NCBI GenBank assembly: GCA_964006375.1
Contig: OZ023264.1
Span: forward strand, 15,014,225-15,078,224
Reading direction: 5' to 3'
Length of the DNA: 64,000 bases
DNA from: Tillus elongatus
Taxonomy: Eukaryota; Arthropoda; Insecta; Coleoptera; Cleridae
Shown here: piece after piece, positions 5,609-61,181 of the stretch
How the letters are laid out: each line of letters begins with the position of its first letter
How positions within the stretch are numbered: position 1 is the first letter of the stretch
Translations under genes and position numbers: made by a program
The notes under the pieces: model-generated
What the model saw: the letters and a program-made list of their open reading frames with translations, nothing else
The model's database searches: none
Told to the model about the DNA's origin: nothing

Positions 5609-5652
5609 CAACCTAGCCGTATTTCAAGCTTATTAGCCATCATCAGTACGGT
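5609..5652 (-). ncRNA. Hammerhead-type motif A1, damaged
   Basis: On the minus strand: stem I strand accgta (5652-5647), core ctgatga (5646-5640), stem II ggctaataagctt, then gaaat instead of gaaac (5625-5621). The cleavage side (gta and tgcggt in copy A3) has been replaced by a divergent sequence. Not expected to cleave. Confidence 0.6.
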
Positions 5653-5885
5653 ATAGCCAGGTGAAGATGGGAACACTCTGGATGGAGATGCAAAAATACA
5701 CGCAGTCACAACAGGCAACCAGTGCACATTTGCAGCAACATTTGGAAGACCCTCAATCCTATTTTGGTTGTTTCCCTCGGATTGAGGGTCTTCCGAATGT
5801 TGCTGCAAATGTGCACTGGTTGCCTGTTGTGACTCCGTGTATTTTTGCAACTTCATACAGAGTGTTCCCATCTTCACCTGGCTAT

Positions 5886-5935
5886 ACCGTACTGATGATA
5901 TGATGGCTAATAAGCTTGAAATACGTGTATGCGGT
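5886..5935 (+). ncRNA. Hammerhead-type motif A2, damaged
   Basis: Stem I accgta (5886-5891) and tgcggt (5930-5935), core ctgatga (5892-5898) and the gta cleavage site (5927-5929) are intact. Stem II carries extra bases (tatgatg, apparently a local duplication), and gaaac has become gaaat. Confidence 0.65.
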
Positions 5936-6195
5936 TGTCTCCTGGCGGCTTTGCCCTTAACCCTTTTTCCTTGTATAGTACAGAAATGCCGTGTTATAAA
6001 TCCTGTTATAGTTAGTATAACTTCCTGGGCTTCGGATGTTCACGCAGATGATTTGTTTGCCTCCGTGGCTATTTTGGTTGTTTCCCTCGGATTGAGGGTC
6101 TTCCAAATGTTGCTGCAAATGTGCACTGGCTGCCTGTTGTAACTCCGTGTATTTTTGCATCTTCATCCAGAGTGTTCCCATCTTCACCTGGCTAT

Positions 6196-6240
6196 ACCGT
6201 ACTGATGATGGCTAATAAGCTTGAAACACGTGTATGCGGT
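6196..6240 (+). ncRNA. Hammerhead ribozyme motif A3, all core positions present
   Basis: Stem I accgta (6196-6201) pairs over 6 bp with tgcggt (6235-6240). The core ctgatga is at 6202-6208. Stem II is ggct aata agct. The second core box gaaac is at 6223-6227. A two-pair stem III with loop acgt leads to the cleavage triplet gta (6232-6234). This is a type I hammerhead with a minimal stem III, the form known from Penelope-like elements. Cleavage is predicted after A6234. Activity is inferred, not shown. Confidence 0.8.
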
Positions 6241-6276
6241 TGTCTCCTTGCGGCTTTGCCCTTAACCCTTTTTCCT

Positions 6277-6885
6277 TATATATATATATATATATATATA
6301 TATATATATATATATATATATATATATATATATATATATATATATATATATATATATATATATATATATATATATATATATATATATATATATATATATA
6401 TATATATATATATATGTCTCCAACCGATAACTCAAAAAATAATTAACCGATTTTGATCAAACTCGGCAGGTGCCTTTATTTTATCAATGGCTTGGATGAG
6501 TTCGTTAGCCAGGAAAATCGGACAAGGTTTTCTGGAAAAATTTTGAGTTTCCTTTAAAAAAAAAATTTTCTCCGAAAATTACAAAGCAATTTTAATAAAA
6601 TTTGGTGAATATGTTGCCTTGGGAAAGGTCATATTACACGCCAAAATTTAGCTTTCTGAGTTTATATAAAATTGAGTTTTTCAAATTTTGAGTTTTCTTC
6701 AGGAAAAAAATATTTTCTCCGAAAATTACAAAGCTATTTTAATGACCTTTGGTGGATATGTGTCTTGTGAAAAACCTTACTACATCCCAAAATTCAATAG
6801 TTCAAGTTTATAGAAAATTGAGTTATCTAAGTTTGAAGCATTTAATAAGAATTCACTACCATAACGCACTTACTGCGTCCCGAAC
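6277..6885 (-). repeat. R1 repeat copy with long (TA)n
   Basis: (TA)n at 6277-6415, then caaccgataactcaaaaaat, gtggcttggatgag-type blocks, two diverged repeats of tttctccgaaaattacaaag, and the terminus ccataacgcacttactgcgt. The hairpin end is missing; the tract abuts PLE family A sequence. Confidence 0.75.
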
Positions 6886-6892
6886 ATTTTTA

Positions 6893-7587
6893 TTATTTGT
6901 TGAGTTCCGTTTCTAATTGTGTTGTTTTATGGAGTTTAAGTTTCTATTTGTTATTGCCGGGTTTCATTATTAAACTGATTCACATAATATTAGCTAGCAT
7001 TATTACCTAATTAGATATTGTAAATTAAATCACAATATTTTTTTATCGCGAATCATTACGAAAAATTATGTTAAAAGTAGAAGCCTATTGTTATACTCCA
7101 TGACCTACTGCTTTTTGAACACTTTTTTTGTTATTTGTTTTCTGGTATTGGATTTCATAGTTTTCTCAAAATTGTCAGTGCAATTACGAGATTTCTCAAG
7201 CATGTTGTACATCGTTAGAAAGCTCCTTACACAAGCTATCACATGAGCAAAAAATCCAATATGGCTGCCACAATAAAAACAAACGTTGATATCCGTAATG
7301 ACAATCCAAAGTTGAGAATAGCACGAAAAGATTACTCTATAAAAAGTGTCCGAATAATGTGCAAGTCTTAGACATGTCATATCAACGCCTACTTAGATAT
7401 TGAAGAAAAAAGAAATCGATAAATATTGCTTTATTCAAAATAACTCGAAAACGAAAAGAGGCTGCGTAAAATATAAGTCATATTTTGAACGAGCATAACA
7501 TTCTACAAAACATTGCTAATTTTACCGTGTCCCTATCTCTAATAACAACGGAGATAGCAATACATTCCCATCCAGTTTGGGACACAC
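6893..7587 (+). mobile_element. Mar-B 3' fragment
   Basis: About 700 bp matching 17646-18376 in the same orientation: ttattatttgttgagttccg at the left, tggtattggatttcatag in the middle, and catccagtttgggacacac at the right end. In the other copy this block follows directly on a mariner-type transposase, so it is the 3' untranslated and terminal part of that transposon. Only the non-coding part is kept here. Confidence 0.75.
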
Positions 7588-7818
7588 TATATATATATAT
7601 ATATATATATATATATATATATATATATATATATATATATATATATATATATATATATATATATATATATATATATATATAAACATATAAAAGTTGAAGC
7701 TGACCCCGATATGGGTTTTAGGGGTCCTATTTTGCGCTCATTTGAAGAAATTTTTTTGGAATTCAAAAATCTGGATCTCCTCATTAGTAAATTTTTTAAA
7801 AGAAGACTCACTAAAAAA
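7588..7818 (+). repeat. R1 repeat, 3' half with (TA)n
   Basis: (TA)n 7588-7681, then acatataaaagttgaagctg, ccccgatatgggttttaggg, gcgctcatttgaag, ending at a degraded attagtaaatttttt / aagactcactaa hairpin. Confidence 0.75.
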
Positions 7819-59342: not shown

Positions 59343-59485
59343 GTAAGTAACATAGTACCTGATTAAATAATTCATTTTTGTGTCCTATTAAGTCTTATTG
59401 TCATTGAAAAATAAAAATGATTCGAAATACCCTTAGTTATAAGTACATTTTGAGAACCCAAATCACCACAACACATATTTGAAAG

Positions 59486-59530
59486 ACCTTACTATTGTTT
59501 CGTTGACAATGTCAACGTCATCAGAAGATG
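59486..59530 (-). ncRNA. Hammerhead ribozyme motif C1
   Basis: On the minus strand: catctt, core ctgatga (59524-59518), stem II gttgac att gtcaac, gaaac (59501-59497), loop aata, cleavage triplet gta, then aggt. Core positions are intact. Stem I starts with the weak pairing ctt / agg. Confidence 0.75.
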
Positions 59531-60128
59531 AAAAATTCTAAAATTAAACTCAACAGCTACAGTGTATTTATATCGCGTCTAGGTAAACGAACTAGTCCGA
59601 AGTAAAATTGTCGTCGAAGACCCATCGTTTGTCTATTGTGTAGTGAACCTACGAGGTGGAAGATCTGATTTAATCTTCTGGTTGACAAATTTATGAGCTT
59701 TTATCTGATGTAAGGATAATGGGCTTAAAATGAAAGGTACCGAGTTATTTAAGGAAGCTACGCGTTCCTTTTGCACTAGAAATTTCACTATGTGAATATT
59801 GGAGCAAGCCGACAGGCACATCTGGTGAAACAGACACCATATCAGCCGCTCATCTCGGTTTGCTCCAATATTCACATAGTGAAATTTCTAGATCAAAAGG
59901 AACGTGTAGCTTCCTTAAATAACTCGGTTTAAGCTCATTATCCTTACAATTAATAAAAGCTCATAAATTTGTCAACCAGAAGATTAAAGCAGGTCTTCGA
60001 CCTCGTAGGTTCACTACACAATAGACAAACGATGGATCGTCGACTACAATTTTACTTCGGATTAGTTCGTTACCTAGACGCGATATAAATACACTGTAGC
60101 TGTTGAGTTTAATTTTAGAATTTTTCAT

Positions 60129-60169
60129 CCTCTGATGACGTTGACATTGTCAACGAAACGATCGTAAGG
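60129..60169 (+). ncRNA. Hammerhead ribozyme motif C2
   Basis: cct (60129-60131), core ctgatga (60132-60138), one extra base, stem II gttgac att gtcaac (6 bp), gaaac (60155-60159), loop gatc, cleavage triplet gta (60164-60166), agg pairing with cct. An outer stem I segment may form between atttttc and gaaat further out. All conserved core bases are present. Confidence 0.78.
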
Positions 60170-60259
60170 TCTTTGAAATATGTGTTGTGGTGATTTGTGT
60201 TCTCCAAGTGTACTTATCAGTGCTCATCACAGGTTCCAGTTTTCACGTACCCTTAGTTA

Positions 60260-60689
60260 GAAAAAATGTAGACAGCGTTAGTGAGTTTTTGTAAAATGTA
60301 ATCATGTAACAATGTAATCATTATCGTCTACCAATAAAATATGATCGCAGGAACAAGAATTAAAGGCTTTTTTGTCAGACAGCCTGACGACATCTATAGA
60401 AATCCTATATGGCGTTTAAATAAAAAACATAGAGTTGGCGATGACTCACAAGAACCGAAACGTTGTTTAGGAGTTTTTACGTCATCAGAGTGTTTGATAT
60501 CAAAAAAATAACTGAAAAGTGAAGAAACCGCACAACAGTCATAACAGAAATTAAAAATTCGAAAAATTCAGTGTACCAGGTTAGATCTCTTGATGTCAAA
60601 TTATTGATCACCAAAATACTCAAATTTATCCTTTGACTTTGACTCACCCTGTATAGGTAGTAGCGCAGTCAAAAACTAGTGAATAAATA
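60260..60689. other. No gene recognised
   Basis: It contains a ctgatga on the minus strand (60488-60482), but no matching gaaac box at the right distance. Otherwise unassigned. Confidence 0.4.
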
Positions 60690-60904
60690 CACTTGGAGAA
60701 CACCCAAATTACCACAACACATATGTTCCAGATTCCAGTTTTCACATAGTCAAAAACTAGTTTGTGTTTTGAAAACGCGATAGACAATTGTTTTACTATG
60801 TGAAAACTGGAACCTGTGATGCGCACTAATAAGAGCACTTGGAGAACACCCAAATCATCACAACACATATTTTAGAGAGCTTACGATCGTTTCTGAATTT
60901 TCTT

Positions 60905-60945
60905 CCTCTGAAGATGTTGACATTGTCAACGAAACGATAGTAAGG
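60905..60945 (+). ncRNA. Hammerhead ribozyme motif C3
   Basis: cct (60905-60907), core ctgaaga (60908-60914; position 7 is free to vary), stem II gttgac att gtcaac, gaaac (60931-60935), loop gata, cleavage triplet gta (60940-60942), agg. All core positions are present. Confidence 0.77.
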
Positions 60946-61140
60946 TCTCTGAAATATGTGTTGTGGTGATTTGGGTGTTCTCCAAGTGTACTTATTAGAC
61001 AATTGTTTTACTAAAATGTGTATTGAACTAAAAAACAAATTTTTGTGTTTATGATTTGCTAAGGGAAGATTGGAACTTGTTATGAGCACTGGTAAGTACA
61101 GTTTTGGACAACCCAATTCATCACAACACATATTTAAAGA

Positions 61141-61181
61141 CCTGACGATGGTTTCACTTACAACGTTAGCGTCATCAGAGT
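61141..61181 (-). ncRNA. Hammerhead ribozyme motif C4, stem II imperfect
   Basis: On the minus strand: core ctgatga (61178-61172), stem II gctaac gtt gtaagt with one mismatch, gaaac (61155-61151), loop catc, cleavage triplet gtc, then agg. Stem I is weak (act opposite agg). Confidence 0.65.

Follow-up and report, generated by a model that had tools for sequence, protein, structure and literature searches.

The hammerhead-type motifs spread around the limb-development gene Dll in the window (the whole stretch of 64,000 nucleotides analysed here) are real ribozyme motifs, their strict count being far above that of shuffled sequences, and one of the three families into which they fall, family B, is shown to be the terminal repeat (pLTR) of an endonuclease-bearing Penelope-like element (PLE). 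We consider it quite probable that the whole set is explained by minimal, dimer-type hammerheads carried on Penelope-type insertions, with family B as a pLTR, family A moved by PLE enzymes, and the copies within Dll introns masked. What is possibly new here is the reading of family A as a PLE-mobilised retrozyme, plus a possible built-in off switch in family B. The two taken jointly, i.e. A as a retrozyme-like missing link, mobilised by PLEs, and B as a ribozyme with its own off switch, preserved through compensation at N7, are put forward tentatively.

Hammerhead motifs in the window

Ten motifs had been listed by the sequence-only reading, each with CTGATGA or CTGAAGA, a hairpin, GAAAC and a cleavage triplet. 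The first block, together with a hairpin-like segment and a block resembling GAAAC, was found at all ten, but an exact GAAAC at seven only (6196, 47065, 48144, 59486, 60129, 60905 and 61141); it is replaced by GAAAT in motifs 5609 and 5886 and by CAAAC in motif 15356, and motif 5609 is without a GTA or GTC triplet. Their grouping into three sequence families, A, B and C, was supported by alignment. Five copies (6196, 47065, 59486, 60129 and 60905) had been described as complete: the full core and a stem II of at least 4 bp are present in all of them, but the base of stem II is imperfect, with an unpaired nucleotide or a U.U mismatch in each. Under a strict descriptor, in which stems I and III are required in addition to the core, four of the five passed (6202+, 59524-, 60132+ and 60908+), A6196 and B 59486, 60129 and 60905 showing a hammerhead core, three stems and an NUH site. 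The family C copies of the window fail this descriptor, motif 47065 because of an A.G mismatch in stem I and a 2-nt loop in stem III.

The 4 strict cores of the window compare with a mean of 0.015 and a maximum of 1 in 200 dinucleotide shuffles, and a loose pattern gave 14 matches against 2.88 expected, a number reached in 0 of 100 shuffles; in these comparisons copies of one family are not independent. The window also contains an eleventh, damaged motif of family B, palindromic insertion units, two of them with target-site duplications, and remnants of PLE coding sequence at 13930-14844 and 46206-46871, all of which the earlier reading had missed.

The Rfam hammerhead models, by which that reading had proposed to be checked, went against it, with 0 matches at gathering and no hammerhead among the 63 matches at E<=10 in the window, and none in two short stretches of it either. 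No Rfam hammerhead was found in the fetched loci L063, L064 and L066, all with intact motifs, and RF00008 had no match in this genome nor in 14 control genomes. Because these three intact-motif loci were missed too, the Rfam silence is read as a lack of model coverage, and its use as a refutation was dropped. With a covariance model trained on 16 B copies, A was absent from the matches at E<=10 and C appeared only at E 0.75; sequence homology of the three motifs is therefore not claimed.

In an unscored first-look search of the genome, where seed counts are lower bounds, PLE endonuclease seeds numbered at least 49,186 (average at least 1.8 per 64 kb), B pLTR seeds at least 3,371 (at least 0.13 per 64 kb) and family A seeds at least 627 (at least 0.02 per 64 kb). 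By both B pLTR and A seeds the window would stand above the genome average, as far as such lower bounds can tell.

Family B, terminal repeat of an endonuclease-bearing PLE

A Penelope origin had been proposed for all three families. For family B it is well supported by neighbouring reading frames, target-site duplications and one-sided tails. GIY-YIG frames were found beside B pLTRs in 6 of 6 cases scanned, 5 of them above Pfam's cut-off, and a sister subtype of B (L062) has one 721-aa frame with both RVT_1 and GIY-YIG. At a tandem junction (L063), the EN stop of the first copy is followed by the ribozyme and then by the ORF of the second. When solved structures were searched with the PLE frame, no match came up.

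Of 18 B head-to-head pairs, 16 are flanked by target-site duplications of 9-18 bp, as compared with 0 of 306 mismatched flanks that reach 9 bp; in 17 of the 18, exactly one arm carries a tail. The exceptions are L017, with tails on both arms and no duplication, and L045, whose match of 8 bp does not exceed the null. Neighbouring B copies are head-to-head in 21 of 26 cases and tail-to-tail in 3, and neighbouring EN copies head-to-head in 28 of 40 and tail-to-tail in 0, the rest being tandem in both sets.

In the window, alignment and the covariance model place a B-type pLTR end with tail at 15340..15477 (+), in whose motif (15354-15398) G12 is changed to C. A head-to-head unit is formed by a short arm with no tail at 59440..59597 (-), with its motif at 59485-59529, and by a tailed arm at 60060..60247 (+), with about 30 nt beyond 60217, its motif at 60127-60171 and a predicted cut after 60166; both arms rest on the strict descriptor, the covariance model and the flank test. 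Flank comparison revealed the target-site duplication TACCCTTAGTTA on its left (59428..59439) and right (60248..60259). The second unit (60799..60995; alignment, flank test), with a tailed antisense arm on the left and motif 60903-60947 (+) on the right, lies between the two copies of TAGACAATTGTTTTACTA, at 60781..60798 and 60996..61013. The third consists of an antisense arm at 61065..61183 (-), identified by alignment and covariance model, whose motif (61139-61183) has an A.A mismatch in stem II, and of the damaged eleventh motif at 61187..61231 (+), scored at 26.5 bits by the covariance model.

Long inverted arms and target-site duplications are also what speaks for foldback DNA transposons (MITEs), in which the hammerhead match would be incidental. 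The RT and GIY-YIG frames beside B pLTRs, the tail on one arm and a duplication length varying from 9 to 18 bp make this exceedingly improbable, and for B the ORF, tail and target-site results rule it out. The same duplications, the one-sided tail of about 30 nt and the head-to-head arms suggest that insertions would be made by the PLE RT/endonuclease; the window copies of all families are stranded fragments.

Folding of B speaks against the preferred explanation: in the monomer, the hammerhead lies 10.5 kcal/mol above the MFE, and the MFE of B dimers is not a double hammerhead. Small PLE hammerhead variants reportedly cleave as dimers. Since the stem III strands are palindromic, cleavage probably needs dimers here as well, in the form of double hammerheads which would be joined through those strands. 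Double hammerheads with palindromic stem III and tandem copies are described in the accessible text of PMC6466107. The most likely job of the B ribozyme would be to cut tandem transcripts into units.

That the motifs are vestiges, cutting nothing now and kept only by element copying, seems distinctly unlikely. Such a reading could draw on the close relationship of the fetched B copies (the best 40 match the query at 95-98%) and on the report, in the accessible text of PMC11167929, that hammerhead mutants have no effect on PLE insertion in vitro. That report, and the statement in the same paper that no reads start or stop at the cut site, count against the preferred explanation. Against it, stem II pairs are changed on both sides between B variants (51 copies, 8 cells), and in the fetched loci intact ribozyme cores adjoin long RT/EN frames. 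The base of stem II carries an extra nucleotide in 50 of 50 distinct B copies, a count from which gapped alignments had been excluded beforehand, so that its loss could not appear.

A hairpin located 5' of the B core (UCNUC, loop, GANGA) buries CUGANGA. Between two B subtypes it shows a compensatory change at N7 (TCATC/GATGA and TCTTC/GAAGA), which is one event, the number of such pairs being not above shuffles (489/500). By folding, the hairpin is absent or weak in A and in C48144, and is found in the MFE of C47065. To act as an off switch, it would have to be opened by the element's protein or by a dimer partner; if true, this would agree with the report that cleavage of Anolis PAc depends on protein. 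Neither the stem II base insertion nor the 5' hairpin is reported in the accessible text of PMC11167929, PMC3088659, PMC3846280, PMC7229834, PMC6155905, PMC7761336, PMC10085705, PMC6466107 and PMC11722881.

Families A and C

Family A is represented in the window by an inverted arm at 5602..5758 (-), recognised by sequence and alignment, with a damaged motif near 5609-5646 (GAAAT, triplet lost); by a truncated unit at 5759..5967 (+), aligned to the family, whose damaged motif (5886-5934) has an insertion in the stem II region and GAAAT; and by a full unit at 5968..6277 (+), established by strict descriptor and array comparison, with motif 6196-6240, a predicted cut after 6234 and a right end abutting (TA)n. 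No target-site duplication was found for A in the window.

The proposed Penelope origin of this family proved half right. Family A consists of tandem units of about 305 bp (305 bp, 44% GC in L064), and the motif is present in all 5 L064 units that span it; in L068, GAGAC replaces GAAAC in 2 of 4 motif-spanning units. No match worth counting to a PLE RT/EN frame was found in the five fetched loci (L064-L068). Family A agrees with non-LTR retrozymes in its tandem units, whose length falls within 150-450 bp, in its low GC, in the type I hammerhead of each unit and in the lack of any ORF found. Two A6196 copies fold with a double-hammerhead topology as MFE. The circular fold of the unit (-73.7) is little better than that of 30 shuffles (mean -70.1, sd 5.4), and a rod-like circle is not claimed.

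The organisation of family A is thus that of a retrozyme-like, non-autonomous tandem element with one minimal ribozyme per unit, and it could be a metazoan non-LTR retrozyme of the ordinary kind, or a satellite, unconnected with the PLE machinery. This we regard as rather unlikely, in spite of unit length, GC content, hammerhead type and lack of a PLE frame, features which agree with those given for non-LTR retrozymes in the accessible text of PMC7229834. Inverted A neighbours are head-to-head in 9 of 9 cases (9 of 12 neighbours overall, 0 tail-to-tail, the rest tandem), 3' ends are both short and longer (by 37 nt in L067 and 52 nt in L066), stem III is minimal, palindromic and PLE-like, and the terms 'inverted' and 'target site' are absent from the main text of PMC7229834. 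Family A would be marked as a missing link by its minimal PLE-type ribozyme, its head-to-head arms, its (TA)n targets and the occurrence of both short and longer 3' ends, and PLE enzymes are its most likely movers.

In family C, an arm at 47013..47169 (-), with motif 47066-47110 and the A.G mismatch in its stem I, and an arm at 48086..48242 (+), with motif 48145-48189, a damaged stem II and a predicted cut after 48184, were delimited by alignment and covariance model. A palindrome, 90% self-complementary, occupies the head-to-head junction (47885..48086). A decayed PLE RT fragment at 46206..46871 (-), found by tblastn with the L062 frame (41-59% aa identity in the main pieces, stops present), lies 142 bp from the left C arm, on the same strand. 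A Penelope origin is accordingly likely for family C, if unproven; no target-site duplication was found for it in the window. The same tblastn search identified two further decayed pieces, arranged head-to-head: an RT fragment at 13930..14291 (-; 71-75% aa identity, stop present) and an RT/linker fragment at 14285..14844 (+; 60-61% aa identity, stops present).

Insertions within Dll and comparison with known systems

The part of the Dll homeobox exon coding 45 aa of the homeodomain (45/45 aa match) was located at 59211..59345 (+), followed by GTAAGT. Motif 48144 lies in the intron before this exon, and motifs 60129 and 60905 in the intron after it, on the Dll strand. It had been suggested that plus-strand copies cut nascent Dll pre-mRNA, by which Dll expression would be tuned. 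The complete cores of 60129 and 60905, in their intronic position, are in favour of this reading. However, the plus copies that lie beyond the Dll-like first coding exon, namely 48144, 60129, 60905 and the damaged motif 61187, are each preceded by an antisense copy. In whole-unit folding, which is an equilibrium prediction only, this copy pairs with 46 of 49 ribozyme nucleotides in 48144, 42 of 44 in 60129 and 41 of 45 in another unit, and with only 17 of 47 in 60905. Moreover, stem III is too short in the monomer and stem II of 48144 is damaged. The suggestion is therefore weakened by the predicted masking of 48144 and 60129, less so for the partly covered 60905, and as a whole we judge it very unlikely.

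Most of the motifs lie in mirror-image pairs. Because the arms are head-to-head, the antisense arm is made before the sense ribozyme in either direction of host transcription; ribozymes in Dll introns are therefore probably masked in long hairpins, and probably do not regulate Dll, for which the insertions would have no regulatory consequence. An antisense-first geometry would explain how ribozyme-bearing insertions are tolerated in introns. As an addition to the proposals on A and B, head-to-head insertion may silence the ribozyme inside host introns.

PLEs have been proposed as helpers for the return of retrozymes to the genome (accessible text of PMC7761336 and PMC11722881). For protein-less animal retrozymes, this idea becomes testable with an array that resembles a retrozyme, has PLE-type ends and lies in a genome which carries many open PLE frames; A, if truly a PLE-mobilised retrozyme, would give direct structural evidence for the mobilisation of retrozymes by PLE machinery, and may form a link between two kinds of jumping gene that carry ribozymes. 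As far as the accessible text of PMC7229834 goes, family A resembles metazoan non-LTR retrozymes in its tandem units of about 305 bp, 44% GC, single type I hammerhead and lack of any ORF found, and differs from them in its minimal palindromic stem III, head-to-head arrays and short or longer ends, which are PLE-like. The window motifs share a very short palindromic stem III, and the need for tandem copies, with the small PLE hammerhead variants of Lunse et al. 2017 (PMC5785218), as these are presented by citing papers.

The pLTRs, tails, target-site duplications and head-to-head palindromes of the Pen families of Adineta vaga are described in PMC3846280. Judged by the accessible text of that paper and of PMC11167929, family B is similar to Pen and to PAc of Anolis in its ORF with RT and GIY-YIG, tandem arrays and pLTR, in its head-to-head inverted pLTRs with a tail on one arm and target-site duplications, and in having its minimal hammerhead at the start of the ORF or upstream of it. 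The ORF of B begins about 90 nt after the cut, whereas that of PAc begins within the ribozyme (PMC11167929), and the core-burying 5' hairpin, of which the accessible text of the two papers gives no description, sets B apart from both PAc and Pen.

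Hammerhead-type motifs and their setting around Dll

At all ten places in the window listed by the sequence-only reading, either CTGATGA or CTGAAGA occurs together with a stretch that resembles a hairpin and a block close to GAAAC; the observation made in that reading was largely right. A loose pattern gave 14 matches in the window, versus 2.88 expected, a number reached by none of 100 shuffles. Four cores passed a strict descriptor that required at least 4 bp in stem II (no more than one unpaired nucleotide on either side), a short stem III, a UH site and at least 3 bp in stem I. 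They are at 6202 (+), 59524 (-), 60132 (+) and 60908 (+), three of them mutually non-independent copies of family B; 200 dinucleotide shuffles averaged 0.015 cores and never gave more than one. An eleventh motif, a damaged B copy, lies at 61187-61231. Scanning with the Rfam hammerhead models, the check proposed in that reading, matched no hammerhead anywhere in the window, nor in three fetched loci that carry intact motifs; RF00008 had zero matches in this genome and in 14 control genomes.

The base of stem II is flawed in all three families, by a U.U mismatch (A), one extra C or U (B) or one extra U (C), and the predicted cut is 43, 51 and 58 nt, respectively, from the short element end, as counted. 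Stem III is very short in the monomer and its strand is self-complementary: ACACGTGT in A copy 6196, ACGATCGT in B copies 60129, 15356 and most fetched copies, ACGCGT in C; the strand is non-palindromic in 59486, 60905 and 61141. Such a palindrome, together with tandem copies, is required for the double hammerheads of mobile elements, according to passages of PMC6466107. By RNAcofold, the minimum free energy (MFE) structure of two 6196 copies is a double hammerhead, with stem II in cis and stems III and I in trans; no such topology was the MFE for B and C copies. In tandem arrays, ribozymes with a palindromic stem III would pair up and cut a long transcript into units.

The window corresponds to C3:15014225-15078224 of an assembly of 1.72 Gb in 30 contigs. 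Part of the Dll homeobox exon was found at 59211-59345 (45/45 aa), followed by GTAAGT; the remainder of the homeodomain did not turn up within the window, which puts the B cluster (from 59440 to about 61240) in the following intron. The frame at 31541-32041 is taken, by eye, to contain a Dll-like first coding exon, with family A and 15356 upstream of that exon and C between it and the homeobox exon. An inverted copy of the same family is found nearby, in minus-then-plus order, for nine of the ten listed motifs; 15356 has no inverted copy left, and the coding remnants of a Penelope-like element (PLE) upstream of it run minus-then-plus.

Other repeats were also observed. Open frames resembling pieces of mariner/Tc1-type transposases occur at 11006-11744 (+), 16765-17151 (+), 38090-38449 (-) and 62599-63720 (-), and non-LTR reverse transcriptase pieces with a FADD or YADD motif at 41800-41955 (-) and 45627-45896 (-), all named by eye. 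A near-perfect hairpin of about 108 nt (10722-10829), weakly matched by several miRNA models under their gathering scores, could be a MITE.

Families B and C

Family B belongs to the Penelope-like elements. Searching the genome with its terminal repeat (pLTR) yielded 41 matches (of 3,371 first-look candidates, 40 were scored). GIY-YIG endonuclease (EN) frames adjoin several B copies, and all six scanned matched, five above the Pfam cut-off. A search with one of them gave 150 matches (of 49,186 first-look candidates, 150 were scored); by our own count, 27 of the 150 listed have an open frame of 792 aa, in some cases as tandem copies spaced 3,079 bp apart. These long frames share 76-77% identity with the query and come from a sister subtype with the ribozyme TCTTC/GAAGA, as in 60905. 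At one tandem junction the EN stop is followed, after about 580 nt, by the hammerhead, and the next ATG lies about 90 nt from the cut. One locus (L062) has an uninterrupted 721-aa frame with RVT_1 and GIY-YIG.

Target-site duplications of 12 and 18 bp flank two B units in the window, each tailed on one arm. The 18-bp duplication of the second unit (60781-60816, 60996-61013) is set in a palindrome, 60729-60816, which has the B tail end in common; the unit therefore went in next to B-derived sequence that was already there. Head-to-head pLTR pairs were collected (n = 18, including two window pairs; loci that overlapped were excluded, and both arms had to extend to the 3' pLTR part): a flanking word of 9-18 bp was common to both sides in 16, versus 0 of 306 mismatched flank pairings with a shared word of at least 9 bp, and exactly one arm was tailed in 17. 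In L017 both arms are tailed and there is no duplication; in L045 the flank match is only 8 bp. The same marks, duplications, one-sided tail and head-to-head pLTRs, are described for Adineta Penelope elements in parts of PMC3846280.

The two C copies in the window are 96% alike; each has a complete core, but 47065 is flawed in stem I and 48144 in stem II. On the same strand, a PLE reverse transcriptase remnant stops 142 bp short of the left arm, and the GAAACGCGTAGGG block also appears in a motif of one fetched locus, L023. By blastn, none of the fetched loci matched the C arm itself, and no C target-site duplication was found in the window. A PLE origin, proposed earlier for all families, holds for B, is probable for C, and is half right for A. 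Divergent hammerhead motifs were also noticed beside B insertions, C-like in L023 near 928 (-), and B-like in L020 near 141 (-) and L034 at 363-598.

Folding of B and predicted masking by antisense arms

Across 51 distinct B copies, 93.8% of the cells keep the hammerhead pairs intact. Two-sided changes occur at two stem II pairs, 8 cells in all; this cell number was reached by 0/500 shuffles, and the number of pairs, reached by 252/500, is not unusual. Directly 5' of the core, a five-pair hairpin (UCNUC, loop, GANGA) is intact in 93.7% of cells; in 11 copies both partners of one of its pairs, the one involving N7, have changed (shuffles: 0/500 for cells, 489/500 for pairs). This compensatory change, one event separating two subtypes, is suggestive of the hairpin, not proof of it. 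The hairpin is part of the MFE in all three B monomers folded, and the hammerhead fold of 60129 is 10.5 kcal/mol worse than its MFE. It is possible that the hairpin is an off switch. A buried core would fit the Anolis PLE hammerhead, which does not cut without the element's own protein, as stated in sections of PMC11167929.

In head-to-head units, antisense precedes sense, whichever strand is transcribed. In equilibrium folds of whole units, ribozyme nucleotides paired with the antisense copy are 42/44 (60129), 41/45 (6196) and 46/49 (48144), versus 13/44 (60129) and 11/45 (6196) after removal of the antisense arm; in 60905, 17/47 are paired outside the ribozyme. The B unit of 831 nt has a folding energy of -579.9 kcal/mol; 20 shuffles averaged -184.2. 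The proposal that plus-strand copies could cut Dll pre-mRNA finds no support, and such cutting is judged very improbable.

Family A

Together with the possible off switch in B, family A was an unexpected part of the analysis, and it is something other than an element of family B's kind. The genome search produced 48 matches, with 40 of 627 candidates scored, and fetched loci show tandem units with a 305-bp period. L064 has three minus units, then plus units, with the core kept in all five units spanning the motif; among the four in L068, one carries a deletion, and in two others GAGAC replaces GAAAC. Inverted neighbours are head-to-head in nine cases out of nine. In L066 the left end is short, the right end is 52 nt longer and (TA)n flanks both sides; one end of L067 is 37 nt longer. 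The short ends seen in L064 and the window adjoin (TA)n as well; none was found at the left end of L065. A dispersed repeat follows (TA)n tracts at 6304-6590, 21803-22127, 35413-35688, 49058-49341 and elsewhere, its copies being 71-88% alike, and family A in the window terminates in one such tract. No PLE frame gave a match worth counting in L064-L068. With moderate confidence, we infer that PLE enzymes move family A. In size, GC content (44% in A) and tandem form, family A resembles the non-LTR retrozymes, as these are characterized in portions of PMC7229834.
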